From Meloidogyne chitwoodi (taxonomy: Eukaryota; Nematoda; Chromadorea; Rhabditida; Meloidogynidae): 64,000 nucleotides of DNA. Position numbers and translations under genes: made by a program. This document shows positions 37,724 to 57,798 of the stretch, one piece after another. Location of the stretch: positions 1,054,001 through 1,118,000 of the forward strand of contig JACZZP010000006.1 of assembly GCA_015183035.1 (NCBI GenBank), read 5' to 3'. The notes beneath the pieces are model-generated. The model had not been told where the DNA came from. It did no database searches and saw only the letters and a list, made by a program, of their open reading frames with translations. Every line of letters starts with the position of its first letter. The stretch's first letter is position 1.

Positions 37724-38078
37724 GCAGTGCAATATTAGTTCACTTATAAGTGAAAATGGAACTTTCTTAAAATTATTGGCAAGAACTAAATCAGAAAAGA
37801 AACGCCGACGTCTTTTAAAACAAGCAAATAGTCAAAATCTCCTTGCTATTGCAGAAATATGTTTAAATATTGTAAAAGCTAGATATAATTTAACAAATCG
37901 TCAAAAGAAACGTCTTGTACCATATGCTAATTTTGTTCGTCGGATGAGTCGCGCTAGAAGTGAAAAGGGTGCTAGAAAAATACTTACACAGAAAGGAAGT
38001 GGTGTTGGAGGTGTTTTAGCAGCTTTACTTACACCAATACTTATTGAACTAGGAAAAAAGATTTATAAAAGGAGATAG
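37710..38078 (+). CDS. pX-like basic core/minor protein
   Basis: A 122-residue, strongly basic protein. The signature is LTNRQKKRLVPYANFVRRM followed by ARSEKGARKIL, then a Gly-rich hinge and a hydrophobic C-terminal helix (LAALLTPILIEL). This pattern recurs in Polintons, adintoviruses and relatives, where it is compared with adenovirus core/minor proteins. The likely role is DNA condensation or capsid-interior membrane activity. The start overlaps the end of the ATPase frame by a few bases, which suggests tight transcript packing. Confidence 0.65.
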   Translation: MVSKTQCNISSLISENGTFLKLLARTKSEKKRRRLLKQANSQNLLAIAEICLNIVKARYNLTNRQKKRLVPYANFVRRMSRARSEKGARKILTQKGSGVGGVLAALLTPILIELGKKIYKRR

Positions 38079-38142
38079 TGATAGTTAAAAATTTTTCATT
38101 TATTCATTAATATTATTGTATTTTAAAAATTTTTCATAAAAT

Positions 38143-38561
38143 ATGGCAAATAAATTTATTCTTATCCCAGAAGATATTTATAGAGGTCTTACAACAAATG
38201 ATGTAGGTGAACCTAACCTTGATTTTACCAGACGTACTCTGGAAAAAACTAAAAGAAAAAAAGAAAGTGAATCATCTAAAAATGTTCATTATAATCAAGA
38301 ATTGAGACGTTATTTAAATTTGAGAAAGGAGAGAGAAAATAGACCAGTTAAAGTAGAAGTTGTAAATAAATCTAAAGGTGTTATTGTACCAAGGAACAAT
38401 TCTCGATCTGCTACCTATATTTCTGCAGGTAATGACAGTGATGGAGGAGATGACGACGACAATAACTATTGGATGAGTGATAATTTTTCATTCTCCTCCT
38501 ACCCCAGAGAACATCCAAATAAAGCATATAATATTGTACCAACTATTTCCAATTCTACGAT
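38143..38561 (+). pseudogene. Disordered Lys/Glu-rich protein, 5' part (interrupted)
   Basis: An open frame from ATG 38143, starting ANKFILIPEDIYRGLTTNDV, followed by charged sequence. It is split at 38561 by a nested mobile element; the frame runs 34 bases into the element and stops at 38593-38595. The frame would continue in phase on the far side at 40106 if the element and one copy of its 6-bp duplication are disregarded. The function is unknown. Its position between the packaging ATPase and the integrase is a variable slot in Polintons. Confidence 0.7.
38556..38561. repeat. Nested element target duplication, left (TACGAT)
   Basis: Matches 40100-40105; six bases, as expected for a Polinton-type integrase. 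Confidence 0.9.
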
Positions 38562-39013
38562 AGTAGTTAACCATACGGGTATGTCGTGGGTGTAGGGGGA
38601 AGAAAAAGAAGAGAGAAGTCGGTGTCGCGGGTGTAGGGGGAAGAAAAAGAAGAGAGTAGTCGGTGTCGCGGGTGTAGGGGGGAAGAAAAAGAAGAGAGTA
38701 GTCGGTGTCGTGGGTGTAGGGGGAAGAAAAAGAAGAGAGTAGTCGGTGTCGTGGGGGAGGGGGAAGAAAAAGAAGAGGGCAATTAGTGTCGTGGGTAGGA
38801 AAAAGAAGAAGAGAGTAGAGGGTGAAGGGGGAAGAAAAGGAAGAGGGCAATTGGTGTCGTGGATAGGAAAAAAGAAGAAGAGAGTAGGAGGTGTTGAGGC
38901 CTTTTCCTTTCTATTGAGCAGTCGTCTTTCCAAGTCTTGCCTTGAAAAGTTTTGGAAAAATAAAATCCTTTTTTTTTCATCCAAAGGATTATGCATTTCT
39001 TTCCATATTTGGT
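38562..39013. repeat. Nested element left arm with 41-bp minisatellite
   Basis: A terminal inverted repeat of 452 bp. From about 38584 to 38880 it is built of degenerate units of about 41 bp, each with a GTAGGGGGAAGAAAAAGAAG core. The unit contains TAGTCGGTGTCG(T/C)GG, echoing the large Polinton's terminus. Confidence 0.85.
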
Positions 39014-39358
39014 AATAATTGGGGTAGGAATCTCGGTCTTTAGTGTAGAATTGTATGGAACATTAAAGACACGCCCCTTATTCTTCACTTTAAAGAAACA
39101 GTGGCCAGGTAAATCGTAGAATGAATCAAATGGAACAAAGCGACTCCCTGAAAAGCGTGTGCAGTAAACAATCACGCCCTCTTTTACTACTACAAAGTCC
39201 AATTCAACTTCCGTAGCCTTGCATTTGGTACATTTACCGGCTTGATCATAAGGAATAAAACGCGGAGTTGTAAGTCGGACACTAGAAATAGTGATTCCGC
39301 TAGAGGTAATATTAAAATCTATTTCGGGTAAAATTTTAGGAAAATTTTTGTTGTTCAT
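38783..39358 (-). CDS. Only gene of the nested element (zinc-type domain protein)
   Basis: Starts at ATG 39358 on the minus strand. Residues 1 to about 115 are a paralogue of the Polinton gene at 36307-37045: KCTKCKATEVELDF, RFVPFDSFYDLPGHCFFK and KNKGRVFN match in order. At the point where the Polinton gene has its intron, this copy reads straight through. The rest of the frame enters the left arm and becomes a Leu/Phe/Ser/Pro-rich tail made by the minisatellite, which may not be a real protein end. The function is unknown. Retention of only this gene suggests it helps the element, or that it is a leftover of deletion. Confidence 0.6.
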   Translation of the reverse strand: MNNKNFPKILPEIDFNITSSGITISSVRLTTPRFIPYDQAGKCTKCKATEVELDFVVVKEGVIVYCTRFSGSRFVPFDSFYDLPGHCFFKVKNKGRVFNVPYNSTLKTEIPTPIITKYGKKCIILWMKKKGFYFSKTFQGKTWKDDCSIERKRPQHLLLSSSFFLSTTPIALFLFFPLHPLLSSSFSYPRH

Positions 39359-39647
39359 CTTAAAATGAATGTAAAATGTAAAAACGCTCTGTTTTTATAG
39401 TGAGAGAAGAAGTGATACTAAAAAATATATAATATTTTCTCCTTCTATTACTCAATAATTTTTTCAATGCGCGAAAGATAATTTATTCGTAAAATATTTT
39501 CTCCTTCTATCCCCTATAAATTTTATCGGTTTATAATTTATTCATAAAATATTTTCTCCCTCTATTTCGCAATAATTTATTCAGTACGCAAAAAAAAAAA
39601 GAGTTTTATTTTTATGACCAATGAGAATAGATTTTATCCTATTCTCA
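39359..39647. promoter_or_regulatory. Loop region upstream of the nested gene
   Basis: About 290 bp containing three spaced copies of an AATATTTTCTCC(T/C)TCTAT word (near 39430, 39495 and 39548). They lie upstream of the nested gene's start and could be promoter or replication elements; no function is shown. Confidence 0.4.
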
Positions 39648-40099
39648 ACCAAATATGGAAAGAAATGCATAATCCTTTGGATGAAAAAAAAAGGATTTTA
39701 TTTTTCCAAAACTTTTCAAGGCAAGACTTGGAAAGACGACTGCTCAATAGAAAGGAAAAGGCCTCAACACCTCCTACTCTCTTCTTCTTTTTTCCTATCC
39801 ACGACACCAATTGCCCTCTTCCTTTTCTTCCCCCTTCACCCTCTACTCTCTTCTTCTTTTTCCTACCCACGACACTAATTGCCCTCTTCTTTTTCTTCCC
39901 CCTCCCCCACGACACCGACTACTCTCTTCTTTTTCTTCCCCCTACACCCACGACACCGACTACTCTCTTCTTTTTCTTCCCCCCTACACCCGCGACACCG
40001 ACTACTCTCTTCTTTTTCTTCCCCCTACACCCGCGACACCGACTTCTCTCTTCTTTTTCTTCCCCCTACACCCACGACATACCCGTATGGTTAACTACT
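39648..40099. repeat. Nested element right arm
   Basis: The inverted copy of 38562-39013, equal in length. It encodes no protein of its own; the Pro/Phe/Leu-rich open frames here are low-complexity translations. Confidence 0.85.
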
Positions 40100-40105
40100 T
40101 ACGAT
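40100..40105. repeat. Nested element target duplication, right (TACGAT)
   Basis: Matches 38556-38561. Confidence 0.9.
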
Positions 40106-40812
40106 ACCTCCTTCTCTGCCTAGAAGTAGACAAAGTGTATTAATTGAAGAAGATTTTCCTGCAGGACCATCAACATCACATCAAACTCGAAAGAGAAATA
40201 TACAAACGAATAACGAAGAGTCAAAAAAATTTAAAACAATTAAAAATATAAAAGAGTCAAAAATTCCGATTCCAAAGAAAGGAAAACAAAAGAAAAATGT
40301 AAGACCAGACTCAAATATTATCGCATCTTTAAATCCTCCTCCTCCTATTTCTCTTCAAAGTACTAAGAGACGACCATCGGAGTCTGAAGAATTTAATGGG
40401 TTAAAGAGGAGACAAGTCGCAGATCCAAATATTGAGGCTGAAGATGAGCCACAAGATTTAAAACAAGACAGAAAGTTGACGCAACAAAAAATTCGTGCTC
40501 GAAGCTCAAAAGAAAAAAGATTTTCTAAAGAGAAAGGAAAAATTAAAAAAGCAAAAAGTTACCATTAATGAATCCGCATTAGTTCAAGCTCGCATTCAAG
40601 ATGATATTAATAGACGACAAAAATTAAAAAGAAAATGGCCTGGTCCTCCTGATGGAGAAGAAATAAGAGTTCAAAGAAAAGTTACTAGGAGACAATCAGA
40701 ATTAGCAGCAAGAAAGTGGATGTTAAACCTTATAAAAGCGAGGCGAAAAGAAGCAATTACAAGGAAATTAACTAAAAAAGATATTTCAAATTTTAAACCA
40801 ACACTTTGGTAA
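40106..40812 (+). pseudogene. Disordered Lys/Glu-rich protein, 3' part (with frameshift)
   Basis: The continuation of the gene begun at 38143. From 40106 the frame runs in phase with the 5' part through Pro/Ser/Lys-rich sequence. At about 40485-40500 the conserved-looking coding moves to another frame (QKKKDFLKRKEKLKKQK onward) that ends at 40810-40812 after KKDISNFKPTLW. The product is highly charged and probably disordered. Both the nested insertion and the frameshift inactivate it as read. It ends 14 bp before the integrase start. Confidence 0.65.
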
Positions 40813-40826
40813 TTTTATACATAAAA

Positions 40827-41912
40827 ATGGATGAATATATAAAACTCCTTGACAAACTTTATAATGATCCAGAGTCCCCTTCAGCATATGCTGGTATAGA
40901 TAGTTTATGGAAAGAAGCAAAGAAAACATTTAAACATATTCCTAGAGATGTAATTAAAAATTATTTGGAAGGGCATCGCACCTATACTCTTATGCGCCCC
41001 AAAAGGGTGCATTTTCGCAGGAGTAAAACTATTGCAGCAGGTTTTATGACTGATGTACAAGTAGATTTAGCAGATATGCAAGCACTTTCTAGGCATAACA
41101 GAGGGCATAAATATATATTATTTGGAATTGATGTTTTGTCTAAACGAGTCTTTACTGTTCATTTAAAATCAAAGAAATCAGATCATATGCTGGAAGCTTT
41201 TCGTATTCTCATTGAACAAATGCCTATGAAACCTCACAGAATTTTTTCAGATAAAGGGAAAGAATTCACAAATCGTCCTTTAAAAGAATTTTTTGAAAAA
41301 GAACAAATAGAAAAATATCAGGCAACACATTCTATAGTAAAAGCATCACTTGCTGAAAGAGGAATTAGAAATTTAAAACAAAGATTATATCGTTATTTCT
41401 CTCAAAATAAAACACAAAATTGGATAGATATTTTATCAAAAATAGTTGAAGGAATTAATAAATCTTATTGTCGTATACATGGAATGCGTCCAATTGATGT
41501 CAATTTTAAAAATGCTCAAAAAGTTTGGAAGAAAATTTACGGGAATATTTTCTTTACCAAAAATAAAAAGAAGCCTAAATTTAAAAAAGATGAACATGTT
41601 AGAATTAGTAGAGACAAAGGACATTTTGAAAAAGGATATCTTCCGAATTGGGGTGACGAAATATTGGAGATTGAAAAAGTAAAAGGACATGAAAATCCTA
41701 TATTATATAAATTGCGCGACGATAAAGGAGAAAAATTCAAAGGCTCTTTCTACGAAGAGGAATTATCTAGAGTAAGAAAAGATGCGGGAACGGAGTATCG
41801 TATAGAGAAAATTGTGAGAAAAAAGAAAAGATATGATGGAACATACGATATATTAGTTAAATTCATTGGTTACCCAGAAAGAGAATGGATTCATGAGTCC
41901 CAACTAGTATAA
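40827..41912 (+). CDS. Polinton integrase (rve) with C-terminal chromodomain
   Basis: Joins the element's ends to the target and makes the 6-bp duplication. The start is ATG 40827, about 361 residues. The N-terminal region has the SPSAYAGIDSLWKEAKK pattern of Polinton integrases. The DDE core is D in VDLADMQ, D in FSDKGKEFTN, and E in SLAERGIRNLK, with 34 residues between the last two acidic residues. An SH3-like basic region follows. The C-terminal chromodomain reads YRIEKIVRKKKRYDG then YDILVKFIGYPEREW, which may guide insertion to modified histones. The frame is intact. It might also serve the nested element in trans. Confidence 0.95.
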   Translation: MDEYIKLLDKLYNDPESPSAYAGIDSLWKEAKKTFKHIPRDVIKNYLEGHRTYTLMRPKRVHFRRSKTIAAGFMTDVQVDLADMQALSRHNRGHKYILFGIDVLSKRVFTVHLKSKKSDHMLEAFRILIEQMPMKPHRIFSDKGKEFTNRPLKEFFEKEQIEKYQATHSIVKASLAERGIRNLKQRLYRYFSQNKTQNWIDILSKIVEGINKSYCRIHGMRPIDVNFKNAQKVWKKIYGNIFFTKNKKKPKFKKDEHVRISRDKGHFEKGYLPNWGDEILEIEKVKGHENPILYKLRDDKGEKFKGSFYEEELSRVRKDAGTEYRIEKIVRKKKRYDGTYDILVKFIGYPEREWIHESQLV

Positions 41913-41963
41913 AAGACTTTTATTTTTGTTTATATTGTATCATTTAAATAAAACTTAATAAAA

Positions 41964-43400
41964 ATGTCTAATAGTTTTTTCGTATTTCTTCCAAGTAATG
42001 TACCTGATTATTCTTCAAATAAACCTAATAAATATCGTGTCCATCTACCAAAACCTTTATATTTCAATGGAAATTGGGTATGTGGTTTGCATAGTATAAG
42101 TTACCCTTATTCATGGCCATCTACTATAGGAACCTTAGATGAACAATGGTTAAAAATTCACTTTACAGATGAATTGGGTCAAAAACATATTCTTCGTATA
42201 CCTATCCCAAGAGCTTCGCATACAAACGTGGAAAAATTAAGAGATTTTCTAAATTCTACTCTTGAACAACAAAATAATGCAATAGATTTAGTTTTTGACC
42301 AAGAAAGGTCATCCAAGGATTTAATTGCTTCTCCACCAGGACTAGAAAAGAAAAGAAAAAGAGATATTGAAGAATCACCTCCAAGAATTATACCAAATAA
42401 GAAAAAAATTGAAGAAGAGGTATATAAAGAAGGTCAAAAGGTCACATTATTACAATCTCCTGAGAAAATAGACGATAAAAATGAAAATAATAAAAAAGAA
42501 CAAACAAATAATATTACGCAACCCTCTCCTCCATCTTCTCAAAATAAAGACGATAAAAAAATATTAAAAGAAGAAGATTTTATTAAAAAAATAAAAGAAG
42601 CAGATGTTCAAAATAATAACGAAAAAATAAATGAAAAAGAAAAAATAATAAAGGAAAAGGTCATCCGTTCAAAACAATCTTTAGTATCAGAGAAAGAGGT
42701 TGCGCAAGAAGAAAATATTTTAAAAAAAGACTCTTTACCACCTGTCATTAGTCCGTTATTTTCATTAAAATTTCCTGAATTTGAAAAAGAAAATAATAAA
42801 ACAATAATTAAAAATGATGAGCTAGAATTTTCTATAGAGAATGAAGAAAAATATAAAAATAATACTTACAAGGATAATTCAAAATTTTTATTATGGAGAA
42901 GAGGGGCCCGTCTAAATGGAAATTTAACAATGTTAAAAGAAATTATAGATTCAATAATGTTTGAATATAGTACTGACTTTGCACGATTTCGAGTTGTATT
43001 TACGCATGAAAATATTGATCATATATCACTTGCATCACAATTGGGTTATGTTCTAGGGTTTGAAAACTCACAATTTATTCAAAATAATGAAATTGCAAAA
43101 TATGGCTGTGATTTGAGAGGAGGATTTTCTAGTTTTGCTGTTTATACTAATGGTCTTACAGAAAATATGATTATTGGTAATTCCCTAAGCTCATTATTGA
43201 GAGTAGTTTCGGTTTCTGGTGCAACCCCTGGAGAATATAATGAGAAAATATATGATTCACCAATTTATGCTAGAGTTCTTCCAAGAGAAATTAATGAAAT
43301 ACAAATCGAACTAAGAACTATGGATAGTGGAAGACTTGTACCATTCGCCTATGGAACTGTTTTAGTTGTACTAATATTCAAGAAAGTAATAAATTTTTGA
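41964..43400 (+). CDS. Minor capsid protein (penton-like)
   Basis: About 478 residues. The N-terminal block (FFVFLPSNVPDYSSNKPNKY, then VHLPKPLYFNGNWVCGL) and the C-terminal block (LLRVVSVSGATPGEY and RLVPFAYGTVLVVLIFKK) match the conserved ends of the Polinton/adintovirus minor capsid protein, assigned to the penton by structural comparison in the family. Between about residues 110 and 300 lies a Lys/Glu/Asn-rich insert, probably a disordered loop. The frame is intact. It precedes the pVI-like and major capsid genes, forming a structural-gene run. Confidence 0.75.
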   Translation: MSNSFFVFLPSNVPDYSSNKPNKYRVHLPKPLYFNGNWVCGLHSISYPYSWPSTIGTLDEQWLKIHFTDELGQKHILRIPIPRASHTNVEKLRDFLNSTLEQQNNAIDLVFDQERSSKDLIASPPGLEKKRKRDIEESPPRIIPNKKKIEEEVYKEGQKVTLLQSPEKIDDKNENNKKEQTNNITQPSPPSSQNKDDKKILKEEDFIKKIKEADVQNNNEKINEKEKIIKEKVIRSKQSLVSEKEVAQEENILKKDSLPPVISPLFSLKFPEFEKENNKTIIKNDELEFSIENEEKYKNNTYKDNSKFLLWRRGARLNGNLTMLKEIIDSIMFEYSTDFARFRVVFTHENIDHISLASQLGYVLGFENSQFIQNNEIAKYGCDLRGGFSSFAVYTNGLTENMIIGNSLSSLLRVVSVSGATPGEYNEKIYDSPIYARVLPREINEIQIELRTMDSGRLVPFAYGTVLVVLIFKKVINF

Positions 43401-43471
43401 AAAGTATATAAAGCATTATTTTCGTTTATTTTGTATTCATTTATTATTTTATAAATTTTATTAAAAACAAA

Positions 43472-43963
43472 ATGGTACATATTATATTTGATACTACAGA
43501 AGTCGGTTATGACGACTTTATTCAAAACCCTTTTAATATTCAAGAGGGTAGTGGTCTAGAAGGAATAGGAAGTACATACTTCAAAGGAGCATCCCCTTTT
43601 CAAAGAGGTTATGGCTTACAGGGTGGTGCGGGAATAGGAGATGTTCTTAGAGGACTTTGGCGTTTCTTTCTCCCAATTGTTCGTCGTGTAGGAACTACTG
43701 TAACAGCAGAGGCATTAAATACAGGACAGAGAGTGTTAGAAAAAGTTAATCAAGGGGAGCCTATAAGAGAAGCTCTGACTAGTGAGGGAAAAAAAGGTTT
43801 AGACACTCTACTTGAAAAAGGAGGATTACCAAAACAGTTTGGGACTGGCCGTCCGCGAAAAAGTATAAAAGGCGGTAAAAAATATTCTTCACCAAATCAT
43901 AAAATCATTATTGGAAAAGTTGCTAAAAAGAGAGTTAGATCAGACGCTTTCGGCCTTTATTAA
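43472..43963 (+). CDS. pVI-like minor capsid protein
   Basis: A 163-residue protein. The middle has the Gly-rich segment GYGLQGGAGIGDVLRGLWRFF and an amphipathic helix, as in adenovirus pVI-like proteins of Polintons, which lie inside the capsid, disrupt membranes on entry and are cut by the viral protease. The C-terminal part is Lys/Arg/Gly-rich and ends AKKRVRSDAFGLY. Gly-Gly/Gly-Ala sites could be cleavage points, though no site was verified. The gene sits 22 bp before the major capsid gene. Confidence 0.65.
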   Translation: MVHIIFDTTEVGYDDFIQNPFNIQEGSGLEGIGSTYFKGASPFQRGYGLQGGAGIGDVLRGLWRFFLPIVRRVGTTVTAEALNTGQRVLEKVNQGEPIREALTSEGKKGLDTLLEKGGLPKQFGTGRPRKSIKGGKKYSSPNHKIIIGKVAKKRVRSDAFGLY

Positions 43964-43985
43964 TCTAAAAAAAAAATACTACAAA

Positions 43986-45314
43986 ATGGCATACCATAAA
44001 ATAGACAAAGATAGTATAAGCTCCATCACAAATGCTTTGGATTTTTTTCAAATTCCTCCAACAAATGTGAGCATTTCATCAGCCAAAGTTTTTGAAATAT
44101 TACCGAGCAATCCTCTCACGGATACTCCTTACCACTTTAAAATTCATTCTAGTCAAAATTATATTGATTTATCAAAATGTTACTTATTTACTGAATTTCG
44201 AATTCGCAAAGAAAATGCAAATGGACAACTTGTAGATATTGTGTCAACTGACAATGTCGCCCCCATTCAATTAATCGGTCATACTTTTATAAATAATATG
44301 AGAATTAGTATAAATGGAAGAGAAGTTTTTAACTCAAACTCTTTAATGGCTTATAAATCATACCTATCGCATGAACTAAGTTTTTCGAACGCAGCAAAAA
44401 ATTCCCATTTAAATGTAGCAGGATATTATGGAGACTCTGGATTAAGTTTGGAATCGGGTGCAGGATACGAATCAAGAAAATCTCGTTTTGCTCAAAGTAC
44501 AACAGCCCAGTTTATTTCGAAAATAGATGCAGATCTTTTTAATCAACCTTTATATTTAATTAATCACTGTGAAATTGATATAGAAATTCTTCCTAATGAA
44601 TCTCGTTTTGTATTGATCTCACCACTAACTATAGCAGGACTTCCTCAAAATACTCGTTACCACTTTGAAGTAATTAACTGTAAACTTTATGTGAAGAAGG
44701 TGGACATTATGGATGGTCTAGCACTTGACATTGCTAAAAAGCTAGACATGAGACCTGCACGCTATGCTATAAGAAAAACAATGATGAAACCCTTATTTAT
44801 TAGTCAAGGTCGATATGAATTCAATGCAAACCTATTTATGGATCAAATTCCTAGAAGAGTGATACTTGGTCTAGTCTCAAATACTGACTATGTTGGAACT
44901 TTTCATAGAAGCCCTTTTAATTTTCAACCCTTTAATTTGAGAGAAATTAGTATAATTGCAAATGGTAGAAGTTATCCTCAAGCTTCCTATGATTTTGATT
45001 TTCCTAGTGGAAAATTTGCTAGAGCTTTTAATGATATGAATGAGGCAATAGGTTTTACAAATTCCCTAGAAAGTAACGGAATATCCTTCGCACAATATGC
45101 TTACACCCACTGTATTTTCGTTTTTAATCTTACTAACAGCGGAGAAGATCAAAGCGGTCTTTTTGACTTAATTAGAAATGGAACAACCGCAGTTAACATA
45201 AAATTCAGTCAGCCTATACCAGATGGAGGAGTAATGTTAATTGTAATGGGTGAAGCAGACTCATTAATAATGTTAGATAAGAATCGAACAATAACCAGTG
45301 ATACCACAATCTGA
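43986..45314 (+). CDS. Major capsid protein (double jelly-roll)
   Basis: A 442-residue protein from ATG 43986. The start ALDFFQIPPTNVSISSAKVF, then TPYHFKIHSSQNYIDLSKCY and NNMRISINGREVFNSNS, is the typical opening of the Polinton/adintovirus major capsid protein, annotated in worms as a hypothetical of Maverick origin. The second barrel includes YAIRKTMMKPLFISQGRYEF and RRVILGLVSNTDYVGTFHRS. It would form hexon-like trimers. The frame is intact, so capsid function is not obviously lost. An upstream ATG in a longer open frame (43911) overlaps the pVI gene and is less likely. Confidence 0.88.
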   Translation: MAYHKIDKDSISSITNALDFFQIPPTNVSISSAKVFEILPSNPLTDTPYHFKIHSSQNYIDLSKCYLFTEFRIRKENANGQLVDIVSTDNVAPIQLIGHTFINNMRISINGREVFNSNSLMAYKSYLSHELSFSNAAKNSHLNVAGYYGDSGLSLESGAGYESRKSRFAQSTTAQFISKIDADLFNQPLYLINHCEIDIEILPNESRFVLISPLTIAGLPQNTRYHFEVINCKLYVKKVDIMDGLALDIAKKLDMRPARYAIRKTMMKPLFISQGRYEFNANLFMDQIPRRVILGLVSNTDYVGTFHRSPFNFQPFNLREISIIANGRSYPQASYDFDFPSGKFARAFNDMNEAIGFTNSLESNGISFAQYAYTHCIFVFNLTNSGEDQSGLFDLIRNGTTAVNIKFSQPIPDGGVMLIVMGEADSLIMLDKNRTITSDTTI

Positions 45315-45363
45315 TATTTTTATTAATTCATTTATAAAAGTTGTTTAAAATTTTAGAAATAAA

Positions 45364-45828
45364 ATGTTCTCTAAAAATGTTTCGATAATTATTTTTTTAT
45401 TACGAGTTTTCCTTCCTATTACTTCTTTGACAGTTGAGTCAGAATTGCCAGAGTATTCCGAATATTTGCGTCAGATAGCCGAAAGACAAATAAAAACAAA
45501 TATAAAGGAAGAAGTAACCACAAAATCTTTGATTAGTCCCTTTGCAAATTTTCCTTCTATTCAATTATGTAAGGATGCTCCTACAACAAGCGAAAACTAT
45601 TATAATCATGTCTATTGCTGGGTAATGTTACTTCTTTATACATTGCTTGTACTAAGTCTAATAATATATCAATTACGATCGATTGTGTGGTTAGGGAATA
45701 CTATCCCAAAAAGAAAAAATAAAAAAGATATTGAACTTGGTTTAATAGATGAACAGTCTAGAAATAACAAAAATATTGACAACAAATCCAAAGACGAACC
45801 AAATATTTCAAGGATGCTTACCATGTGA
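45364..45828 (+). CDS. Type I membrane protein, Polinton cargo
   Basis: A 154-residue protein with a signal peptide (IIIFLLRVFLPITSL), an ectodomain of about 75 residues with few Cys, and one transmembrane segment near residues 90-110 (VYCWVMLLLYTLLVLSLIIY). A basic then acidic cytoplasmic tail ends in SRMLTM. I do not recognise the family; it is much shorter than known Maverick fusion proteins. It may be an entry or envelope accessory, or a virion membrane protein. Its 3' end overlaps the protease start in another frame (45769-45828). Confidence 0.55.
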   Translation: MFSKNVSIIIFLLRVFLPITSLTVESELPEYSEYLRQIAERQIKTNIKEEVTTKSLISPFANFPSIQLCKDAPTTSENYYNHVYCWVMLLLYTLLVLSLIIYQLRSIVWLGNTIPKRKNKKDIELGLIDEQSRNNKNIDNKSKDEPNISRMLTM

Positions 45829-46216
45829 TAAAATACCCAATATAAATTGTATAAGATATCCTGCGGCGTTTGTATAGAATTTGGACCCTCATCAGTCAGG
45901 AGGATCACATTGGGTGTCTATTTTTGCAGAAGGAAAAGAAAGATGTGTATATTATTTTGATAGCTTAACACTTTTTAATATTCAAAAATCAAAAGAAGGA
46001 TGTATAATAAATAATTTTCTTGAAAAATTCCCTTTAATAGTTAGAAATTGTAATCCCTACCAATCTCCTTTATCTAAGACATGTGCCCACCATTGTATTT
46101 GTTTTATTTATTTTCTCTCACAAAATTGTACCTTTAATCAATATCTTAAAATACTAGAAAAAGAACATAACCCAGATTTATTTGTTAAAAAGATAGTTAA
46201 TAAAATGCTTAAATAA
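45769..46216 (+). pseudogene. Adenovirus-type capsid maturation protease with in-frame TAG
   Basis: A cysteine protease of the adenain/Ulp1 type that cleaves capsid precursors. The N-terminal part starts at ATG 45769 (SLEITKILTTNP). An in-frame TAG interrupts it at 45875-45877, just before NLDPHQSGGSHWVSIF. The catalytic His is in GGSHW, the Asp in YYFDSL, the Gln in YQSP and the Cys in SKTCAHHCICF, in the expected order. The stop lies in the beta-sheet before the catalytic His, so termination there removes the whole active site. Either the gene is dead, the stop is read through, or the base is wrong. Confidence 0.8.
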
Positions 46217-46869
46217 TTTTCTTATTTTATTTTTTCTCGAAATGTCCAGATGTTAATTTAATATAATATATTTAGGTTTTAACCTTTTTAAGTAAATAGA
46301 ATAAGAGTAATTAAATTTAAAATAAATATGACCTTTTAGATTTTATTAAAAAAGGAAAAAAATTTCCTAATATAATTAGATTTAACCTTTCGGATGAGTA
46401 TAAAGAGAATGTAAATTAATGACCTTTGCAGGCCAGATGTTTTAATAATTTAACCTTTCGAAAATTTTAAAAGTAAATATTGCGAAAAGGTCAAAGTGTC
46501 ATTAAAATTTTTTAGGATAATAAGATTTTTAAATATAATTGAGTTTTACGACATTTTGCAAGTCCAGATGTTATTAATATTGTATTTATTTAACCTTTTT
46601 GGAAAAATAAAAGCATTTATTTTAAATTTAATTACACTAAAAATTAAAATTTATTATTGTTTAATTTTGAAAGGTCAAGATGTATAAATTGCAATATTTT
46701 TTTTAAAGATAATTGAATTTTACGACATTTTTAAGCCCAGCTGTCTAATTTTAAGGTGTACTAAAATATGCCATTTTTTGTAAAATTATATCCTTTTTTC
46801 ATTTTTATAAAAAATAATTATAAGTAAATATTTTTAGTTCAGATAGATTTTATTTATTAAAAGAGAACA
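46217..46869. repeat. Degenerate repeat region
   Basis: Contains about five spaced, diverged copies of a unit with a CCAGATGT-like word followed by TTTAACCTTT (near 46246, 46432, 46561, 46674 and 46738). No gene is seen. Confidence 0.45.
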
Positions 46870-47326
46870 ATGAACCATTATCCTGAAAAACGTGCAACAT
46901 TAAACGAACAATCTCTTGAATTTTTATTTGAAAATATTCTATCATTGAATGATCATCTCCCTAAATTACAACAAGAAATACAGACAATATGTGTTAAAAA
47001 TGAACCGGAGATAATTGTTGCAACACCTATTCCATTAAATCGTTGGATATATTCTAGATATTTAATCAAGGTATTTTAATTTTATATTATGAAATCAATT
47101 ATTAATTTAGATAAATAATCCTCGTTGGCATTTTGAACGTAATAAAGAGAAAAACTACAAATTTAAAAACTATAGATGTTGCAAAACATTTTACAATGAC
47201 AATCGTTTTAAAAACAGAAAATTCAACAGAAAGTGTTATAAATGTGGTGTGATTTGGCGTTTAAAAAATAATAAGAACGGACGTAGAAGACACATGTGTT
47301 TTGAAAAATATAGCCGACCATTTTGA
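46870..47326 (+). CDS. Truncated polymerase-B paralogue (N-terminus plus zinc ribbon)
   Basis: Two exons (46870-47070 and 47111-47326) joined by a 40-nt intron give about 138 residues. Exon 1 parallels the polymerase's first exon: EKRATLNEQSLEFLFENIL against TKRAKLTTERSRAFLIENIL. It ends in the same LIK, and exon 2 starts with the same INNP. It then jumps to the zinc-finger region (CCKTFYNDN, CYKCGVIWRLKNNKNGRRRHMCFEKY) and stops. All polymerase and exonuclease motifs are missing. The frames are open throughout, so it could be a real short protein or a remnant of tandem duplication with internal deletion. Confidence 0.6.
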
Positions 47327-47380
47327 TATGATTTTTACACTCATAGATATCTTTATTATTTAATTTTTATTGTTGTTATT

Positions 47381-47740
47381 AATAAATAGAAGATACAATT
47401 TTGAAAAAATTAAGGATTAGAAGATGTCGTTTTTAGGGGTAAAAATGCATAATTAAGGAAAAGAAGATAAAATTTTAAAAAAATTAACAACTAGAAAATA
47501 ACTTTTTATTTAAGAAATAACAATTAACAAAAATAAGATGAAATTTATAAAATATTAGTTTAGAGAAGATGTCAGTTTTAGGGGTAAAAATGCAATATTA
47601 ACGAAAAGAAGATACAATTGTAAAATAATTAAGGAAAAGAAGATGAAATTTACATTTTTTGCCTATTTTCGATGAAAAAATACATATTTTTATAGTATAT
47701 GCGTGTGAAAAATATTCGCACGAAAAATCGCCAGCCGTTT
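47381..47740. repeat. Direct repeat copy 1 (360 bp)
   Basis: Begins AATAAATAGAAGATACAATT and ends CGCACGAAAAATCGCC-AGCCGTTT. It is closely similar to 52276-52636 and lies after the truncated polymerase gene just as that one lies after the full gene. Internally it has shorter repeats of AGAAGATGTCGTTTTTAGGGG. Confidence 0.85.
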
Positions 47741-47990
47741 ATATGCACTTGTGGAGCAGTTCTTTTTTGAAATTTTATTTAAATTTTTTATTTAAATTTA
47801 TATTTTTATAATTATTTTTTAAATTTAGAAATACTGAGAAAAATGAATGGATAACTAAAAAAAGGGCGTGGCTTAAAAATAGTATAAAAGTCGAAGATTT
47901 TAACAAAAATATTTCATTCTTTAAATTTTTATTTATTTTCTTATTTATTGTTTATTTATATTATATAAATTTTAGAATTAATTTTATAAA
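47741..47990. other. Upstream region of polymerase gene
   Basis: AT-rich DNA with a TATAAAAG-like stretch near 47883. Probable promoter region; no motif has been tested. Confidence 0.35.
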
Positions 47991-50900
47991 ATGAGTCCTC
48001 CTCCAACTAAACGAGCAAAATTAACTACAGAACGATCTCGTGCCTTTTTAATCGAAAATATTTTAAATGCTTCTAATGGTGAACTACCCCTTATAAATTT
48101 ACAACAACAACAATATGTTCAAGAAGGTCAAGGAAAATCACCTGAAAGTTACGTTACAAAACTAGGAGAGCAAGTTCAACATAATAAAAAATTCCGATAC
48201 ACAAAGTGTAGTACAAAATTTCAAATTAATGAAGTACCAGCAGATCCAGAAGACCTTTTAAGTGGAATATTTCAACACTGCGTCGATGCAGCATTAGAAG
48301 AATGTCGTGAAAGGGGAGATAACCCAGATCAGCTAGGATGTGTCATCACCAGTGAATTACTTGAACCTGATGTTTGGATACCAATCAGGGAGATTACAGA
48401 CAACACAGTGGACACTATACTAAACCAATTTCTTAAAGTTGGTCAAAGCAAAAAACAACAAGGAGTCACACTATGGGGAAAACCTTTCGAGATTACAGTG
48501 ACAACAGTAGATACCAAGAATGAAAAAGACAAAGATAAAATTGTAGGAGGAGCAAGAGGAAAACTTGCACCAGTACATCATCGCATCAGTTCACAATGTC
48601 TAATCAAGGTTTTTTATATTTACAAATAAATAATTTTTAATTTTAGATAAATAATCCCGATGATATGAATCATTGTTTATTCTTTGCTCTTCAAGCAACA
48701 CTAGTTTCCAATATTTATGAATTTACACGTTCTCAATTTTATGATTATATGCATGGCCGTTATGGATCAAGAAATCAATTTAGAAATGAAACACACCATC
48801 TTATGAATCAAGTATTTGCTCCTTTTGGTCGTCACGAGTATGCAGCAGAAAAATGGGTGAAGCCAGTCGTTGAATACTGGAACAACATATACAAAGGCAA
48901 ATTTATCTTCAAAGTCTTTATTTTTGGAGCATCTGGTCATTATAAACCAATTTTTAAATATGGTCCTGAAAAGTTTGATACACCCATAATTATTCATTAT
49001 GACAACAATCATTTTGATGGAGTTCAAAAAGCTGGAAATTTATTTGGATACCCCTATTGTTTTTCATGTGAAACAATATATCGTCATGCTCAAGAACATT
49101 CAACTAAATGTCTCTCTCGTTGTTTAAAATGTTCTCGTATAGGACCGACTTTTCCGTGCAAAGAAGAGAACAATTACAATCTTAAATGCAGAGGATGCTG
49201 CAAATTATTTTACAATGCAAATTGTTACCAGCATCATTTAAACAGTGGATTTGCTATAATTCAAAACAGTGTGAAAAATGTGGAGAAATTTATCGTGTAA
49301 GCAATAACACTAAGAATGGACGTAGAGGACATGTCTGCTTTGAAAAATATTGTGGACGCTGTGACGATTACCATGATCCTAAAAGAGGGTGCTACATCAA
49401 ACCTCTCAAACCAAAACAACAAACTCCATATCGACTTGTTTCCTTTGATTTGGAAACCATGCAACATAAAATTATAGATCCTTCAAAACAACAAAGACTT
49501 CATGAGCCTAATTTTATTGCAGCAAAAATTGTATGTCCAAGCTGTATAACAAACGGTGAATGGAAAAGAAGTTTAAAAAACAAATTTTGCAAAGTTTGTG
49601 GACCCCATCGTACTATTACCTTCTCTCACCGATCATATAACAACACTGAAACAGATAAAAAAATTATTTCTCAAAATCCTTTAAAGGATTTCGCAAAATG
49701 GATATTATATGACTTGCCAAACAACTATGAAACATATGTTTATTCACATTTTGGAGGCCGTTTTGATATGGTGCTTGTCTTCAAAGAATTATTCAATGAG
49801 AAACTCAATCCAGAATTAATAATGAAAGGCAACAAATTATATGAAATGAAAGTAAAGAAGCGCCAAAATTTGAATCCGAATATAGTCTTTCGAGACTCTT
49901 ACAATTTAATGCCAATGGGCTTAGCTGCATTGGTACCAACATTTGGATTACAAGTAGAAGACAAGCCATTTTTTCCTCATTTGGCTAATCAACCCGAGAA
50001 TTATGGAAAGATAATATATCCTACAAAAGAAGAGTATATGGCAAATGGAATGATGCCTTCAAAAAAGAAGGAATTTGATAATTGGTATGATGAAAATAAA
50101 ACAACACCATTCCTATTAGACGAAGCCTTAGCAAGTTATTGTACAAATGATGTAGAAATATTAATGTGCGCTTTAATCGATTTTCAAAATGAATTTTATG
50201 AAACAACAAGTAGTTCAGAACATGAAGGAATTGATGTATTAAAAGAATGTATGACAATTGCAAGTTCCTGTATGAAACATTTTCGACTAAATCACTTAAA
50301 AGAAGACCATCTAGCCATTGTGCCTGAAAGAGGATATGAAAATGCTGAAAACCAAAGTCTTTTGGCTTTGAAGTTCTTCCAATGGTATTCAGAGAAAAAC
50401 AACGTCGAAATACAAACAGCTCATTGGAAAGGAGAAAAGAAAGTTGGAAATTTTAAATTAGATGGTTGGATTGAAGAGCAGCAATTAGCAATAGAAGTTA
50501 ATGGATGTGGATGGCACGGCTGCCCAAAGAAAGGATGCTACCCTGGTGAAAATATGATGCTACCTAATGGTTTGACAGCTGGAAAACAACGAGAGAAAGA
50601 TAAGAAAAGATTAGATTTTATTCGAACTCAAGTGCCAAGAGTGGATGTATACTGGGAATGTGATATAAGAAGAATGATAGAAAGAGATAGAGAAATGAAG
50701 AAGAAATTTGACAATTATTTGGATGAAGGCCCATTAGAAATAAGAGGCTGTTTCTTTGGAGGGCGCACAGGCCCATTAAAAGTTTATCATGAAGCAAAGC
50801 ATGGCGAGAAGATTTCATATTTAGATGTAACATCATTGTACCCCTACACAAATTTCAATACAAAATATCCAATTGGACATCCTAAAGTCCATACACTTAA

Positions 50901-52217
50901 TGAAGATGTACATTGGACAAAAGCAGCAGACAATCCTTATTCCTTCTCATTAATGAAGGTTTTCGTCATACCACCAAGAAAGATCGACATACCAATTCTT
51001 CCTGTAAAATTAGATGAACTACGACTACTTTTTCCTCTCTGTGCAAAATGCTCCAAAACACACCCAAAAGGTGGAATCAATGAAAACTACAGCTGTCGGC
51101 ATAATGATAGAGAAAGAGGATGGGTCAGCAGTTGCACTTCAATTGAACTAAATGCAGCTTTAGAAGAAGGCTATATTGTTACCAAACTTTATAGAGTATT
51201 GGAATACACAGAAACAGACGACGAGCTTTTTAGACCTTATATGAGAGAATTTTTAGCGCAAAAGATACATGCATCAGGCTTTGATGAAGAAATAAGAGGA
51301 AATGGAGAAAAAGAAGAAAATTTTGTAAAAGAATGCTTTGAAAAATTTGGAATCAAAATTGAAATTGAAAAGATGACACCTAATAAAGGAAAAAGAGCTA
51401 TAGCAAAACTGGCTGTAAATAATTTATGGGGGAGATTTTCGTTAAGAAATCATGGACTAGCACAAACACTTATTACCGATGACCCAGCAGAATTAATAGA
51501 ATTTCTAAACAACAGATCGATTGATGTTGCAGCATTAGATGAACTTACTAAAGATACAACAATGATTCGCTATGTAAAGAAGAAGGAGTGGGTTGAAGAA
51601 CACGATTCTTCCAACGTTGTGATATCTCTATGGACTACGTCCGCAGCACGCTTGCATCTACTTAAATTAATGCAAAAAGTTGTGAGGACACCCGGTTGTA
51701 CGCTTCTTTACACAGGTATTTATAATATAATTTATAAAATTTATTTTAAACTTTAGACACCGACTCCCTTATATTTGCTCACCCTGAAAACAACAACCCA
51801 TTAGAAATTGGACCTCATCTAGGTGACCTGACGGATGAGTATCCCGAACATGATATTCTCGAGTATTGTAGTGGAGGTGCCAAACAGTACGGACTAAAGC
51901 TCAGAAGGAAAAATGGAAGTGTCAGCGAACCGGAATATGTTTTGAAGGTCAGAGGAATTACATTAAACTATGACGTCATCAACAATCAAGGACTTAGGTA
52001 CGAAACATTTAAAGAATCAGTTCATAATTTTATAAATAATAATGGTGATTTAGATCCAATTTTTATTGTTTACCCAAACTTTTTAAAACCTTCTATTAAA
52101 AGTAGTTCTGTTATCTCCCAGCCTTTTCATAAAAATTATAAACCTTTCATAGGCAAAGGTATTATTCGCCCTAGTGATTTTACTGTTCTAGATTATGGCT
52201 TTGTTAAAAATATTTAA
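47991..52217 (+). pseudogene. Protein-primed family B DNA polymerase, frameshifted
   Basis: The element's replicative polymerase. Exons: 47991-48608, 48647-51715 and 51757-52217; the introns are 38 and 41 nt. The N-terminal part includes a Cys/His-rich zinc region. The exonuclease motifs are SFDLETMQ, HFGGRFDMV and YCTNDVEIL. The polymerase motifs are DVTSLYPYTNFN (A), KLAVNNLWGRFS (B) and DTDSLIF (C, formed across the second splice). The frame breaks at about 49240-49250, between HHLNSG and the zinc residues SKQCEKCGEIY, consistent with one lost base. As read the first frame ends at 49298-49300. Other motifs look intact, so a sequence error or a recent mutation is possible. Confidence 0.9.
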
Positions 52218-52275
52218 TTGTTTTCATCATTTTTCTTATTTATTTTTTACTTTTTACAAATTTATTTTTAATAAT

Positions 52276-52636
52276 AATAAATAGAAGATACAATTTTGAA
52301 AAAATTAAGGATTAGAAGATGTCGTTTTTAGGGGTAAAAATGCGATATTAAGGAAAAGAAGATACAATTTTGAAAAAATTAACAAATAGAAGAATAATTT
52401 TTATTTAAAAAATTACAATTAACAAAAAGAAGATAAAATTTAGAAAATATTAAGAATTAGAAGAGATCGTTTTTAGGGGTAAAAGTGCATAATTAATGAG
52501 AAGAAGATACAATTTTAAAATAATTAATGAAAAGAAGATGAAATTTACAATTTTTGCCTATTTTTGATGAAAAAATAAATATTTTTATAGTATATGCGTG
52601 TGAAATATATTCGCACGAAAAAATCACCACCCGTTT
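52276..52636. repeat. Direct repeat copy 2 (361 bp)
   Basis: The second copy of 47381-47740, after the full polymerase gene. Its right end runs into the last codons of the minus-strand PAZ gene. Confidence 0.85.
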
Positions 52637-53187
52637 AAATAAGTTAAATCGTTTTGAGATTGACTGAATTTTCTTCCAACATAACATAACTCTTCATCAT
52701 AATCTGATAATGGCACAGGAGTTGTTACATCAAATTCTCTTGGTGATTCTTCTGAAGATGTTTTACTTTTATCTTTGAAATAATTTTCTAGCCATTTATT
52801 AAAATCTGTCTTTTCTTCATCTACAAGTTGTAAAAGCTCAATAGGATAGTATCTGTCTTCACCTTTTGTAAAGTGTTCAATTACACAGTGATGATAAGGA
52901 TAGTTGAGTCTGATACGATGACGAGAATAAAAATGAGCAGCAACACTGATATTGAATGGACGAGATAGTCGACCATATGCTTGTAAAACATCAGATCCTT
53001 GTTTACTCAAATCATCAAAGAATAAGGTCTTGTTTAAATCATTATGATCAGTATATGTTGTACGAAGTTTTTTGCCTTTTAATTCTTTTAAAATTTTTTC
53101 TCTATTTATCGGATGATTGAGCATATCTCGTAGTGATTTTTTATTACATTTTAGAATTTTTGCAAATTCATCAATAAGGAGAGCCAT
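52624..53187 (-). CDS. Stand-alone Argonaute PAZ-domain protein
   Basis: A 187-residue single-exon gene. Residues 1-36 resemble the linker that precedes PAZ (FAKILKCNKKSLRDML). Residues 36-124 match the PAZ domain: KGKKLRTTYTDHNDLN at the entry, then ISVAAHFYSRHRIRLNYP (80-97) where Argonautes have SVAxYFxxxYNIxLKYP, and RYYPIELLQLV (112-122) where they have YLPLEVCNIV. The remainder is an acidic Ser/Glu tail. There is no N, MID or PIWI domain. PAZ binds the 3' end of small RNAs, so this product could sequester small RNAs or compete with Argonautes. That function is inference; the domain call rests on motif order. It is antisense to the core genes and next to a divergent small gene. Confidence 0.75.
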   Translation of the reverse strand: MALLIDEFAKILKCNKKSLRDMLNHPINREKILKELKGKKLRTTYTDHNDLNKTLFFDDLSKQGSDVLQAYGRLSRPFNISVAAHFYSRHRIRLNYPYHHCVIEHFTKGEDRYYPIELLQLVDEEKTDFNKWLENYFKDKSKTSSEESPREFDVTTPVPLSDYDEELCYVGRKFSQSQNDLTYLNGW

Positions 53188-53387
53188 TTGAAAGTAAATA
53201 TTTTTAAAAAAGATGAATATTTTTAAGAATGATTTTTAAAATTTAAAGGATTTCTATAAGTCCTTACACCTTACACCTTCAACCTCAACTAAATTCTGCA
53301 GACCATCTAATTTAAGAATACCCCCTCCCCTCCATCCATATTCTGTTTCCTTCATTTTCTTTAAATCATTTCTGAAATTATATAAAA
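53188..53387. promoter_or_regulatory. Divergent promoter region
   Basis: A 200-bp gap between the PAZ gene and the zinc-protein gene, read outward in both directions. A TATATAAAA stretch lies just before the plus-strand ATG (53375-53387). Confidence 0.45.
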
Positions 53388-53730
53388 ATGAACAATCAAG
53401 AGTTTAATCCACAAATTCCTCCTCCATCTATTCCTGAACCAATGCTTTCTGAACCACCCATGGCTTATCAAGAACAACTATGGAAACTAGTAAAAGGAAA
53501 AACTGTTTTACAATATCATCTCTGCTATGGTTTATTATTCTTATATTTAAATTTATTTAATAATTTTAGAATGTCAAGATCGACTTTTCCATACAAATGA
53601 CAAGGTGATGCGCAATGGAGATAAAGTGATAATCAAAATAGAATTATGCAATAAATGTGTAAAGGACAACTGCTTTGCCACAGATTTACTTACAAACAAG
53701 AAGCCGAAGAATTTTGATAAATATAAATAA
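53388..53730 (+). CDS. Small zinc-ribbon-like protein
   Basis: Two exons (53388 to about 53528, and from about 53570 to 53730) with a short intron starting GTTTATTATTC. The product is about 100 residues: a Pro-rich head (IPPPSIPEPMLSEPP), then CYEC near the splice junction and CNKC 30-odd residues later, which look like a pair of zinc knuckles. It ends KNFDKYK. I recognise no family. Its divergent placement with the PAZ gene suggests co-regulation, perhaps as accessory genes. Confidence 0.55.
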
Positions 53731-54660
53731 AAAATAATTATTCACTTATGTAAACTTTTAATTTGAAATAAAATTTAATTTAAAAATTTTTAGTTTTGTT
53801 TTACCCTTTTATCTTTTTTCTCGCTTTTCCACTATTCTTTCTTTTAAAAACATCTGGCCTTTTTATTTTTTGGTAATTAAAGAAAGAGATTGTCTTCGAG
53901 ATAACGATCTTAAATTTGAATATTTGAATGGACTAGAAAGAGAAGATATAATTAGCAAAGGGCGGAAATAATAAACAATGCGAAAAACAATGTTGCATCA
54001 GATAATATGTCAGTTTTTCTTTTTTTCACACATTTTTATAATGTTAATTTTTAATAAAATAATATTTTTTAAAAATATTTTTAGAATATTTTTATTTAAA
54101 TTAAATTGCTATATTGGCATAACGTAAAACGTTCAAAAAACGTGTTTTTTTAGCGTAGTAGGAAGAGTCTAGTGCGACTTTTAGGATGACTATTTTAGAC
54201 TTTTTGGTATTATTTTTGACTTTTTTGTGCTTTTTCAAGATATTTATGCCTAAAAATCAGAAAAATTTATAAAAAGTTGGAAAACTTCTTAAGTTTAAAC
54301 AATTTTTCAATTTTTCTTTCAACTTTTCTTAAAAATAAAAAAAATTTATCTGGCATTTTGTCAATTTTTTCTTTGTGACATTTTGTCACTTTGTCGCTTA
54401 CTGACATTTTTTCATAAGAAACGAATGCTTTACTAAGCCAATTTTGAGAAATATTTAATCTAATCTGCGTTTATAATTTAAAAATGACCAAAAAATGACT
54501 AGTATTTTTTGTTTTGACCTATTTAGATTAAAAAATTTATTTTATACACATTTTTGTATTTTAAACTTGATTTTTTGTGACTTTTTTGTGACTATTTTGG
54601 TGACTATTTTGGATTTTTAGTGACTATTTTAGGCGACTATTTTGCAATTTTATTTTGACT
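53731..54660. other. Non-coding low-complexity region
   Basis: About 930 bp. From about 54190 on it has many spaced TGACTATTTT/GACTTTTT words. No gene is seen. Confidence 0.45.
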
Positions 54661-54667
54661 ATTTTTT

Positions 54668-55246
54668 TGCAACCAATAACTTAGGTCACAATATTTATTG
54701 CAACCAATAATTTAGGTCACAATAGTTATAATAAAATGCAACCAATAACTTAGGTCACAATTTTTATTGCAACCAGTAATTTAGGTCACAATAGTTATAA
54801 TAAAATGCAACCAATAACTTAGGTCACAATATTTATTGCAACCAATAATTTAGGTCACAATTTTTATTGCAACCAGTAATTTAGGTCACAATAGTTATAA
54901 TAAAATGCAACCAATAACTTAGGTCACAATTTTTATTGCAACCAGTAATTTAGGTCACAATAGTTATAATAAAATGCAACCAATAACTTAGGTCACAATT
55001 TTTATTGCAACCAGTAATTTAGGTCACAATAGTTATAATAAAATGCAACCAGTAATTTAGGTCACAAATAGTTATTGCAACCAGTAATTTAGGTCACAAT
55101 AGTTATAATAAAATGCAACCAGTAATTTAGGTCACAATTTTTATTGCAACCAGTATTTTAGGTCACAAATAGTTATAATAAAATGCAACCAATAATTTAG
55201 GTCACAATAGTTATAATAAAATGCAACCAATAACTTAGGTCACAAA
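54668..55246. repeat. Tandem array of 17 TAGGTCAC units
   Basis: Alternating monomers of about 31 and 38 bp: GCAACCAATAACTTAGGTCA-CAA plus spacer, and a variant with CAGTAATTTAGGTCAC then AATAGTTATAATAAAAT. I count 17 TAGGTCAC cores, almost all in one orientation. The AGGTCA core equals the nuclear-receptor half-site, though it may be coincidence. Confidence 0.85.
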
Positions 55247-55499
55247 TTATAAATACAATTGACGCCAGCGTTTAGGCTTTCAATTATTACTCAATAAAAA
55301 AAAAACATAATTAAAATTTAAATTAATAAATCAATTTTTTATAACTAAGACCCAATAGTGAAATATTTAATATTTTACATAACCTTTTTTATGAATAGTC
55401 TTATTTTCTAAGTTGAATGTTTTTGATGTTGGTGATAATTATTTATTTTAATTTAATAATTTTTATAAATTAATTTTAATTAAATAATATATATTAGTG

Positions 55500-55678
55500 T
55501 ATTAGGGGGAGGGTGGTAACTACTTTACTTTTGGTCCTACTAACTACTCTGAATGGGTTAACTACTAAAATTATAATTTATATTTTGATTAAATTATTTT
55601 AATTTTATATTAATTTTAATAACTAATTTAGCTTAAAAGCTAACTTATATTATTCACACCAAAATTATATAATATAGG
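55500..55678. other. Region with three TAACTACT words
   Basis: TAACTACT occurs at 55517-55524, 55541-55548 and 55559-55566; the last lies in GGGTTAACTACT, equal to the tip of the nested element's terminus. No gene is seen. Confidence 0.35.
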
Positions 55679-56095
55679 GGAAGGCTATACCCAAGATTGA
55701 TTACAGACTAAGAACTCTAACAAAACGCAAGAGTCCCAGAAGTAACCAAAAATAGATATAGGGAAGGCTATACCCAAGATTGATTACAGACTAAGAACTC
55801 TAACAAAACGCAAGAGTCCCAGAAGTAACCAAAAATAGATATAGGGAAGGCTATACCCAAGATTGATTACAGACTAAGAACTCTAACAAAACGCAAGAGT
55901 CCTAGAAGTAATCAAAAATAGATATAGGGAAGGCTATACCCAAGATTGATTACAGACTAAGAACTCTAACAAAACGCAAGAGTCCCAGAAGTAACCAAAA
56001 ATATATATAGGGAAGGCTATACCCAAGATTGATTACAGACTAAGAACTCTAACAAAACGCAAGAGTCCCAGAAGTAACCAAAAAAAGATATAGGG
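55679..56095. repeat. Tandem repeat, five units of 83 bp
   Basis: Units beginning GGGAAGGCTATACCCAAG recur at exact 83-bp spacing (55681, 55764, 55847, 55930, 56013) with few differences. It is non-coding and lies inside the right end of the Polinton. Confidence 0.9.
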
Positions 56096-56530
56096 GAGAG
56101 AGATAACTAATTAGTAACCCTTTAAAGTCTAACAAACGCTAACCATTAAAGATTTACCAAAAAAATTATAGAGGGAATCACATGTCTAAAACTTTTCCTT
56201 TTTTTTACTTCAATCATAAATAAGTATTAGAATTTATTTATTAAAAATGTGAAAGAATAGAAAGAAACTTCTCAATAGAAAGACTGGGAAGGAGAGAAAC
56301 AATAAAAATTATTCTAAAAATTTTTTTCAAAAATTTTCCGTAGTTTTTTTAATTTTATTCATTTAAATTAAAAATTTTTTTATAAATTATAAATAAAAAA
56401 AATAAATAAATAATATATCAGAGAAAAGTGTGTATAAACGCAACAAATCTCTTACTATATAAAAAATAAATAAATAAAGATATGAAATTTATTAAAAAAT
56501 TAAATTAAAATATTAGAAAATTTAGAATAT

Positions 56531-56562
<32 letters not shown>

Positions 56563-56954
56563 TGTTTTTGAAGGAAAAATATTAATTTTAAAAGGGAAGG
56601 AAAAATCAATTTGAATGGTTGGTTATTTCCTTAAAAAATGGCTTGGTAAAGAAAAATAGGTCAATAATTACTTGAATTGCCTATTTTCTCTTTTTTCATA
56701 TTTCTCACTCTTCTTTTTTTTCATATTTTTCATCCATATATATTTGCCCCCGACTTTTCAATTCCTTATTATATATTTAAATAATTTTGCCTAATCCCTC
56801 CTATCTTAATATAAACGAAGAAAATTGCCCTATTACAGTGTTGCGCAATTATTTGGGTAGAGAAGAGTGGACCATGGTCTAAAGATCACCTCATAAAATC
56901 ATTTAAAATTTTAATTACTTTTTATTCTCTATTTTTTATTCAAATAACGTACCT
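56096..56954. other. AT-rich sub-terminal region
   Basis: No gene or repeat is recognised between the 83-bp array and the right terminal repeat. Confidence 0.4.
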
Positions 56955-57798
56955 CTAATATCACTCTAACATAAGTATTTGAGTCTTAGATATGTTTTAC
57001 AAAATTTTTATTTTAAGTTTTACTTATGTCGGTAACTTCAAAGCATCCTAATTAGTTAAAGTTTAAAAATTAAAAAAAATTTTAAAATTAAAAAGTTTTA
57101 AAAATTAAAGTTTAAAAAATTCAAAAAGTTTTTTAAAAAAAAAAAAGTTTTAAAAATTTAAAAGTTTAAAATTAAAAAAAAAAGTTTTAAAGTTTCAAAA
57201 GGTTTCCACTGGCACTAAAACACTTAATTAAAATCCCCCTAATCCTTGGCGGTTCTTATTAGATGTTCGGTAACTTCAGAGCATCCTAATTAGTTAAAAT
57301 TTCAAAAAAGTTTTTAAAAAAGTTTTAACAAATAAAGTTTCAAAAATTTAAAAAGTTTTAAAAATTCAAAAAAGTTTTTAAAAAAGTTTTAAAAATTAAA
57401 AAGTTTAAAAAATTCAAAAAGTTTTAAAAAAAAAAAGTTTCAAAAAAGTTTTAACAAATAAAGTTTCAAAATTTAATTTAAAATTAATAAAAGTTTTACA
57501 AAAGTTTCAAAATTTTAAAAGTTTAAAAAAAGTTTTTAAAAAATAAAAGTTTAAAAAATTCAAAATGTTTTTTAAAAAAAGTTTCAAAAATTTAAAGTTT
57601 TCCCTCGCGCACTAAAAAGTTTTCCCCGTCGCGCACTAAAAAACTCTTTACCACAATTAGTTGTCGGCATTCCTTTGATTTCCCGCACAAAACCCCTTAC
57701 ACCTTTTAGTTACTAATTGGTCTATTTTAGGCGTAAAAATCCCTTTGATCTTTGTCGGCATTATTGACACCCACGACGGTCCCGTCGCTCTTACTACT
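56955..57798. repeat. Polinton right terminal inverted repeat
   Basis: The complement of the left terminal repeat, but longer because of expanded AAAGTTTTAAAA tracts and an internal duplication: the GGTAACTTCA(A/G)AGCATCCTAA block occurs at about 57030 and again at about 57269. The outermost 200 bp match the left end well, apart from one length difference and scattered substitutions. Confidence 0.85.

Follow-up and report, generated by a model that had tools for sequence, protein, structure and literature searches.

We describe a gene at 52624..53187 (minus strand) of a 64,000-nucleotide stretch of the Meloidogyne chitwoodi genome (GCA_015183035.1, contig JACZZP010000006.1, positions 1,054,001 to 1,118,000; hereafter the window). 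Profile matches, predicted fold and genome context support its identification as a free-standing Argonaute linker-PAZ gene of a Polinton, a virus-like mobile element, without PIWI; PAZ is the Argonaute part that holds small RNAs by their ends. The gene is kept under purifying selection as the element's own. An earlier reading of the same DNA (the original prediction) had proposed both this identity and a role as a decoy that binds small RNAs or blocks Argonaute loading. The identification is supported; the decoy or loading-blocker role is a proposal that would fit the conservation of putative pocket residues and the purifying selection.

Domain identity and fold

The gene is an uninterrupted single frame of 187 amino acids that runs from its ATG at 53187 to the end of the stop codon at 52624; its position, strand and both quoted motifs are as originally claimed. 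Pfam PAZ (PF02170) matches residues 29–130 at 32.5 bits (E 9.5e-8) against a curated cut-off of 28.8 bits, and the family alignment (A2) has 22 members, every one of them with a PAZ match of E 0.01 or better. The predicted structure of the protein has a PAZ fold by fold comparison, which bears out the domain call. By alignment with human Ago2 227–350, codons 1–125 (52813..53187, minus strand) form the L1-linker helix and the PAZ fold; the profile alignment to Argonautes begins at residue 5. Codons 126–187 and the stop (52624..52812, minus strand) form a variable acidic tail ending in NGW; the predicted local distance difference test (pLDDT) of the model is low at residues 141–153 and 167–187.

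In a profile search of the Protein Data Bank (PDB), 27 of the 29 matches were AGO-clade Argonautes and the other two were weak, unrelated chains. A PAZ of Dicer or PIWI-clade type is disfavored by these matches; the fold lists leave some room for it, with PIWI-clade PAZ domains ranking lower and Dicer not among the matches listed. A match to Lac_bphage_repr (E 0.007, below cut-off) was taken as chance.

An Argonaute protein has PIWI and PAZ in one chain, and here the open reading frame (ORF) stops after the tail. A six-frame search found no PIWI (PF02171) match at E 0.001 anywhere in the element (33526–57798), in agreement with the predicted lack of PIWI; MID was not searched for as such. The PIWI matches within the window, at 187–1510 and 13887–15166, both lie outside the element.

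The Polinton

The element (33526..57798, 24,273 bp) is a Polinton. It is bounded by terminal inverted repeats (TIRs) that begin AGTAGTAAGAGCG, with TAGTTT immediately outside both ends. The left repeat (33526..33948) and the right repeat (57383..57798), whose inner limits are approximate, align by blastn at 77.7% over 471 columns. Polinton ends start with AG, as these do, next to a 6-bp target-site duplication (TSD). Within these bounds, as the original prediction had placed it, the PAZ gene shares the element with a family B DNA polymerase (main open frame 49186..51756, plus strand; Pfam DNA_pol_B_2, E 4e-40) and a retroviral-type integrase (40827..41912, plus strand; rve, E 1.1e-7, 32.5 bits, 0.1 under the cut-off of 32.6).

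Three other plus-strand features accompany them: a packaging-ATPase-like exon (37065..37424; Adeno_IVa2, E 9.5e-5, 21.8 bits, cut-off 21), an Ulp1/adenain-like protease exon (45878..46216; Peptidase_C48, E 8.3e-4, 19.7 bits, below the cut-off of 20.7; Peptidase_C5, E 0.024) and a 442-amino-acid ORF (43986..45314) with no Pfam match of note, a putative capsid gene by size and place only.

Copies across the genome

We searched 47.48 Mb of the genome in 30 contigs. The PAZ gene has 37 matches, 33 of them without a stop in the matched stretch, and the putative capsid ORF has 62. Searching with two divergent PAZ copies as queries gave no further PAZ genes. The number of true copies is below 37, because contigs C16 and C17 (153,282 and 153,258 bases) look like duplicates with PAZ in almost the same place and because four matches (L025–L028) are truncated frames. 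A chance frame, part of one outcome that was set to refute the original prediction, is ruled out by these matches together with the purifying selection described below.

The copies keep company with Polinton genes: 36 of the 37 have a polymerase, integrase or capsid-ORF match no more than 15 kb away, and the zone so defined covers 4.7% of the genome; 28 of the 37 are convergent with a neighboring polymerase match. The polymerase list is a lower bound, as 55 of 158 candidates were scored. The one Polinton marker near the remaining match, L024 (C25:897412), is a weak integrase-like match (E 2.9e-4) 15.6 kb off. Seen from the capsid ORF, a PAZ gene is no more than 12 kb away at 20 of the 26 loci with 73% identity or more, four of six at 56–57%, one of six at 38–45% and five of 16 at 33–36%; in the last two bins the nearby PAZ gene may belong to a neighboring element. 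These counts indicate a gene that characterizes one Polinton lineage and has a patchy distribution outside it.

At three places (C6:110854-118784, C6:133051-140975 and C12:2246417-2257375) two facing polymerase genes with two PAZ copies between them form mirror-image pairs, as if elements had been joined head to head. Three further PAZ fragments, L070 (C25:530607), L071 (C11:462069) and L087 (C11:624827), share the motif TMYFPPEICE and have no PIWI match listed nearby; they are possibly Argonaute fragments or another stand-alone PAZ set.

Selection, age and origin

Five recent PAZ pairs differ by 57 synonymous and 37 nonsynonymous changes; neutral evolution would predict about 221 nonsynonymous ones (pooled ratio 0.17, binomial p 3e-17). 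Among older pairs, whose synonymous sites are almost saturated, the ratio ranges from 0.12 to 0.62. The gene is thus shown to be under purifying selection. PAZ copies diverge in step with the nearest capsid ORF (Spearman correlation of identities 0.81 for 28 of the 37 copies and 0.75 when reduced to 20 distinct value pairs), which fits long co-inheritance. Among elements of intermediate divergence PAZ is the least conserved of the four genes compared (42–56% identity), below polymerase (about 60–64%), integrase (66–72%) and capsid ORF (73–85%).

A search of protein databases yielded 18 relatives from 87 candidates scored. The 10 with an organism name are all Meloidogyne (hapla, enterolobii, graminicola or genus only), and several are already named ‘PAZ domain-containing’ in UniProt. 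For viral relatives, none of 16 pattern matches in IMG/VR led to a contig confirmed to encode one, and the BFVD viral models gave nothing at E 0.001 or below (best E 0.14).

We built a tree of 31 PAZ pieces, in which one branch (support 100/98; 100% of 200 bootstrap trees) separates 21 free-standing sequences, 11 from this genome and 10 database relatives, from eight rows of this genome (seven Argonautes and one PAZ fragment) and two reference Argonautes. The Polinton lineage probably took PAZ from an Argonaute once, long ago. The tree fits a single capture without showing it, because it is unrooted, the pieces are short and long branches are flagged, among them that of the divergent copy L091. 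The original prediction had looked to phylogeny to name the donor worm Argonaute clade, and this tree does not name it. The top-scoring host PAZ exon belongs to an Argonaute on C28 (36.3 bits; next 21.7), which the short-piece tree does not place as sister of the free-standing PAZ. Two host Argonaute genes with PIWI exons, at 187–1510 and 12514–15166, stand about 18–33 kb to the left of the Polinton.

Putative RNA-end pocket and tail

We take the RNA-end pocket of Ago2 to be H271, R277, F294, Y311, H316 and L339; R315/H316 also appears as a mutant's name among the PDB profile matches. With this numbering the six residues align with Y45, K53, Y71, H85, H90 and Y114, of which Y45 and H90 are invariant across 22 sequences. 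Mean entropy over the six columns, which we picked ourselves, is 0.36, compared to 1.28 for random PAZ columns (permutation p 0.0012).

The tail is variable in sequence. Among 38 distinct sequences its net charge is negative in 35, the last residue is tryptophan in 32 and the ending is GW in 17; members ending in W are spread over 10 of the 14 clusters formed at 70% identity. The six without a terminal tryptophan are L024, L029, P0001 (which stops one residue short), P0011, P0017 and P0018. Our guess is that the terminal tryptophan is a putative Argonaute hook, in those copies that have it.

Proposed function

Binding of RNA 3' ends is what the apparently kept pocket and the purifying selection suggest. 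The captured linker-PAZ, kept by selection, would most likely bind small-RNA 3' ends and weaken silencing of the element, a reading in which we place about as much belief as doubt. The protein would bind either the 3' ends of small RNAs or those of small-RNA duplexes bound for Argonaute, and such binding would weaken nematode silencing aimed at the element. According to a published account (PMC3782831), the WAGO/22G pathways of C. elegans target transposons and nematode Argonaute families are unusually large; since these pathways target transposons, interference with them would be a natural benefit for the element. More speculatively, the acidic W-ending tail may dock on tryptophan pockets of host Argonaute, placing PAZ beside the guide 3' end. 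That the captured Argonaute module is a decoy against the worm's transposon silencing, tethered to Argonaute by its tryptophan in most copies, and so an undescribed class of silencing suppressor, is a tentative suggestion that we consider rather less probable.

Several observations weigh against the anti-silencing reading. Most pocket residues differ from those of Ago2 (H271 to Y, Y311 to H, L339 to Y), and the six positions were our own choice. Conservation ranks among 97 positions are only 41st for K53, 57th for L55 and 48th for Y113, three of the 11 positions listed. Model pLDDT is under 50 at residues 72–85, adjoining the pocket. No PAZ gene was detected near many other Polinton loci of this genome. 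The tail differs in the divergent copies L024 and L029 and is lacking in L091, the most distant copy read, which is one of the four most distant matches and consists of PAZ alone, about 105 residues long, with a capsid ORF 1 kb away; a tryptophan hook therefore cannot be general.

The best-surviving alternative, though an unlikely one, is that PAZ serves the element's own protein-primed replication, recombination or packaging by binding single-stranded DNA or RNA 3' ends, with no anti-silencing role. The convergent arrangement with the polymerase gene in 28 of the 37 copies and the parallel divergence of PAZ and capsid ORF would suit such a protein, and the OB-like PAZ fold can in principle accept DNA ends. 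Yet polymerase adjacency is not kept in every copy, the same genome has Polinton loci without a detected PAZ gene, and the profile and fold matches are RNA-guided Argonautes. More doubtful still is a protein that steers small RNAs, for instance by recruiting or amplifying silencing of rival elements or by tuning the element's own expression, and so acts in regulation or superinfection exclusion and not as a suppressor. Several related Polinton lineages share this genome and the tail could recruit Argonaute, but a bare PAZ lacks the slicer and 5'-binding parts, and the element has no PIWI match. That the gene is a piece of a host Argonaute, or a host PAZ gene standing alone, and lies in Polintons by chance is very improbable: the truncated frames L025–L028 and the setting of L024 would fit this, but 36 of the 37 relatives are neighbors of Polinton markers, in a zone of 4.7% of the genome, TIRs and a TSD enclose the element that holds the window copy, and the gene is under purifying selection.

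Other features of the element

A perfect 452-nucleotide inverted repeat (38562–39013 and 39648–40099), made up of C/T-rich repeats, has 634 nucleotides between its arms. A 300-nucleotide direct repeat (47323–47622 and 52218–52517; 82%) flanks the polymerase block, beside the PAZ gene, and two tandem-repeat arrays (54594–55296 and 55595–56181) occupy the right part of the element. By eye, an apparent small spliced plus-strand gene follows the PAZ gene at about 53400–53740. In M. graminicola, the genome paper (PMC7593179) reads integrase genes in two Mavericks as transfer from bacteria; these may be the Polinton's own integrase.

Comparison with known systems

The literature searched here gave no description of a PAZ gene in a Polinton. 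The portions seen of PMC6361761 contain both ‘PAZ domain’ and ‘Polinton’, treated separately; PMC6128900 also has the two terms, and a word search of the PMC11071308 text found neither ‘Argonaute’ nor ‘PAZ’. We found no earlier account of the gene's place in a Polinton, of its selection or of its tail; the PAZ domain itself is already annotated, as the UniProt names show. The Meloidogyne entries named just ‘PAZ domain-containing protein’ can now be read as relatives of this Polinton gene. The persistence of Polintons in animals with strong small-RNA defenses is a puzzle, and an element-borne PAZ is a specific, testable candidate for counter-defense in nematodes. The gene also offers a natural minimal PAZ protein for study on its own.

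Viral suppressors of RNA silencing include GW/WG proteins that hook Argonaute. The likeness to such suppressors is in the proposed working mode only, binding of small RNAs or Argonaute, and no captured PAZ domain is known to us among them. With Polinton/Maverick elements, including nematode ones, the element shares the family B polymerase, the integrase, candidate ATPase-like and protease-like exons, TIRs and 6-bp target-site duplication, and it differs from them in having a PAZ gene; we know of no described Polinton with one. With the PAZ of AGO-clade Argonautes (human Ago2, 8thq and 6ra4; Drosophila Ago1, 1r4k) the protein shares the fold and the L1-linker helix before PAZ, and apparently also the position of conserved aromatic and histidine residues. 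In contrast to those domains, which it matches at about 20% identity, it is free-standing, without an N, MID or PIWI part, has an acidic tail of its own and is located in a Polinton.
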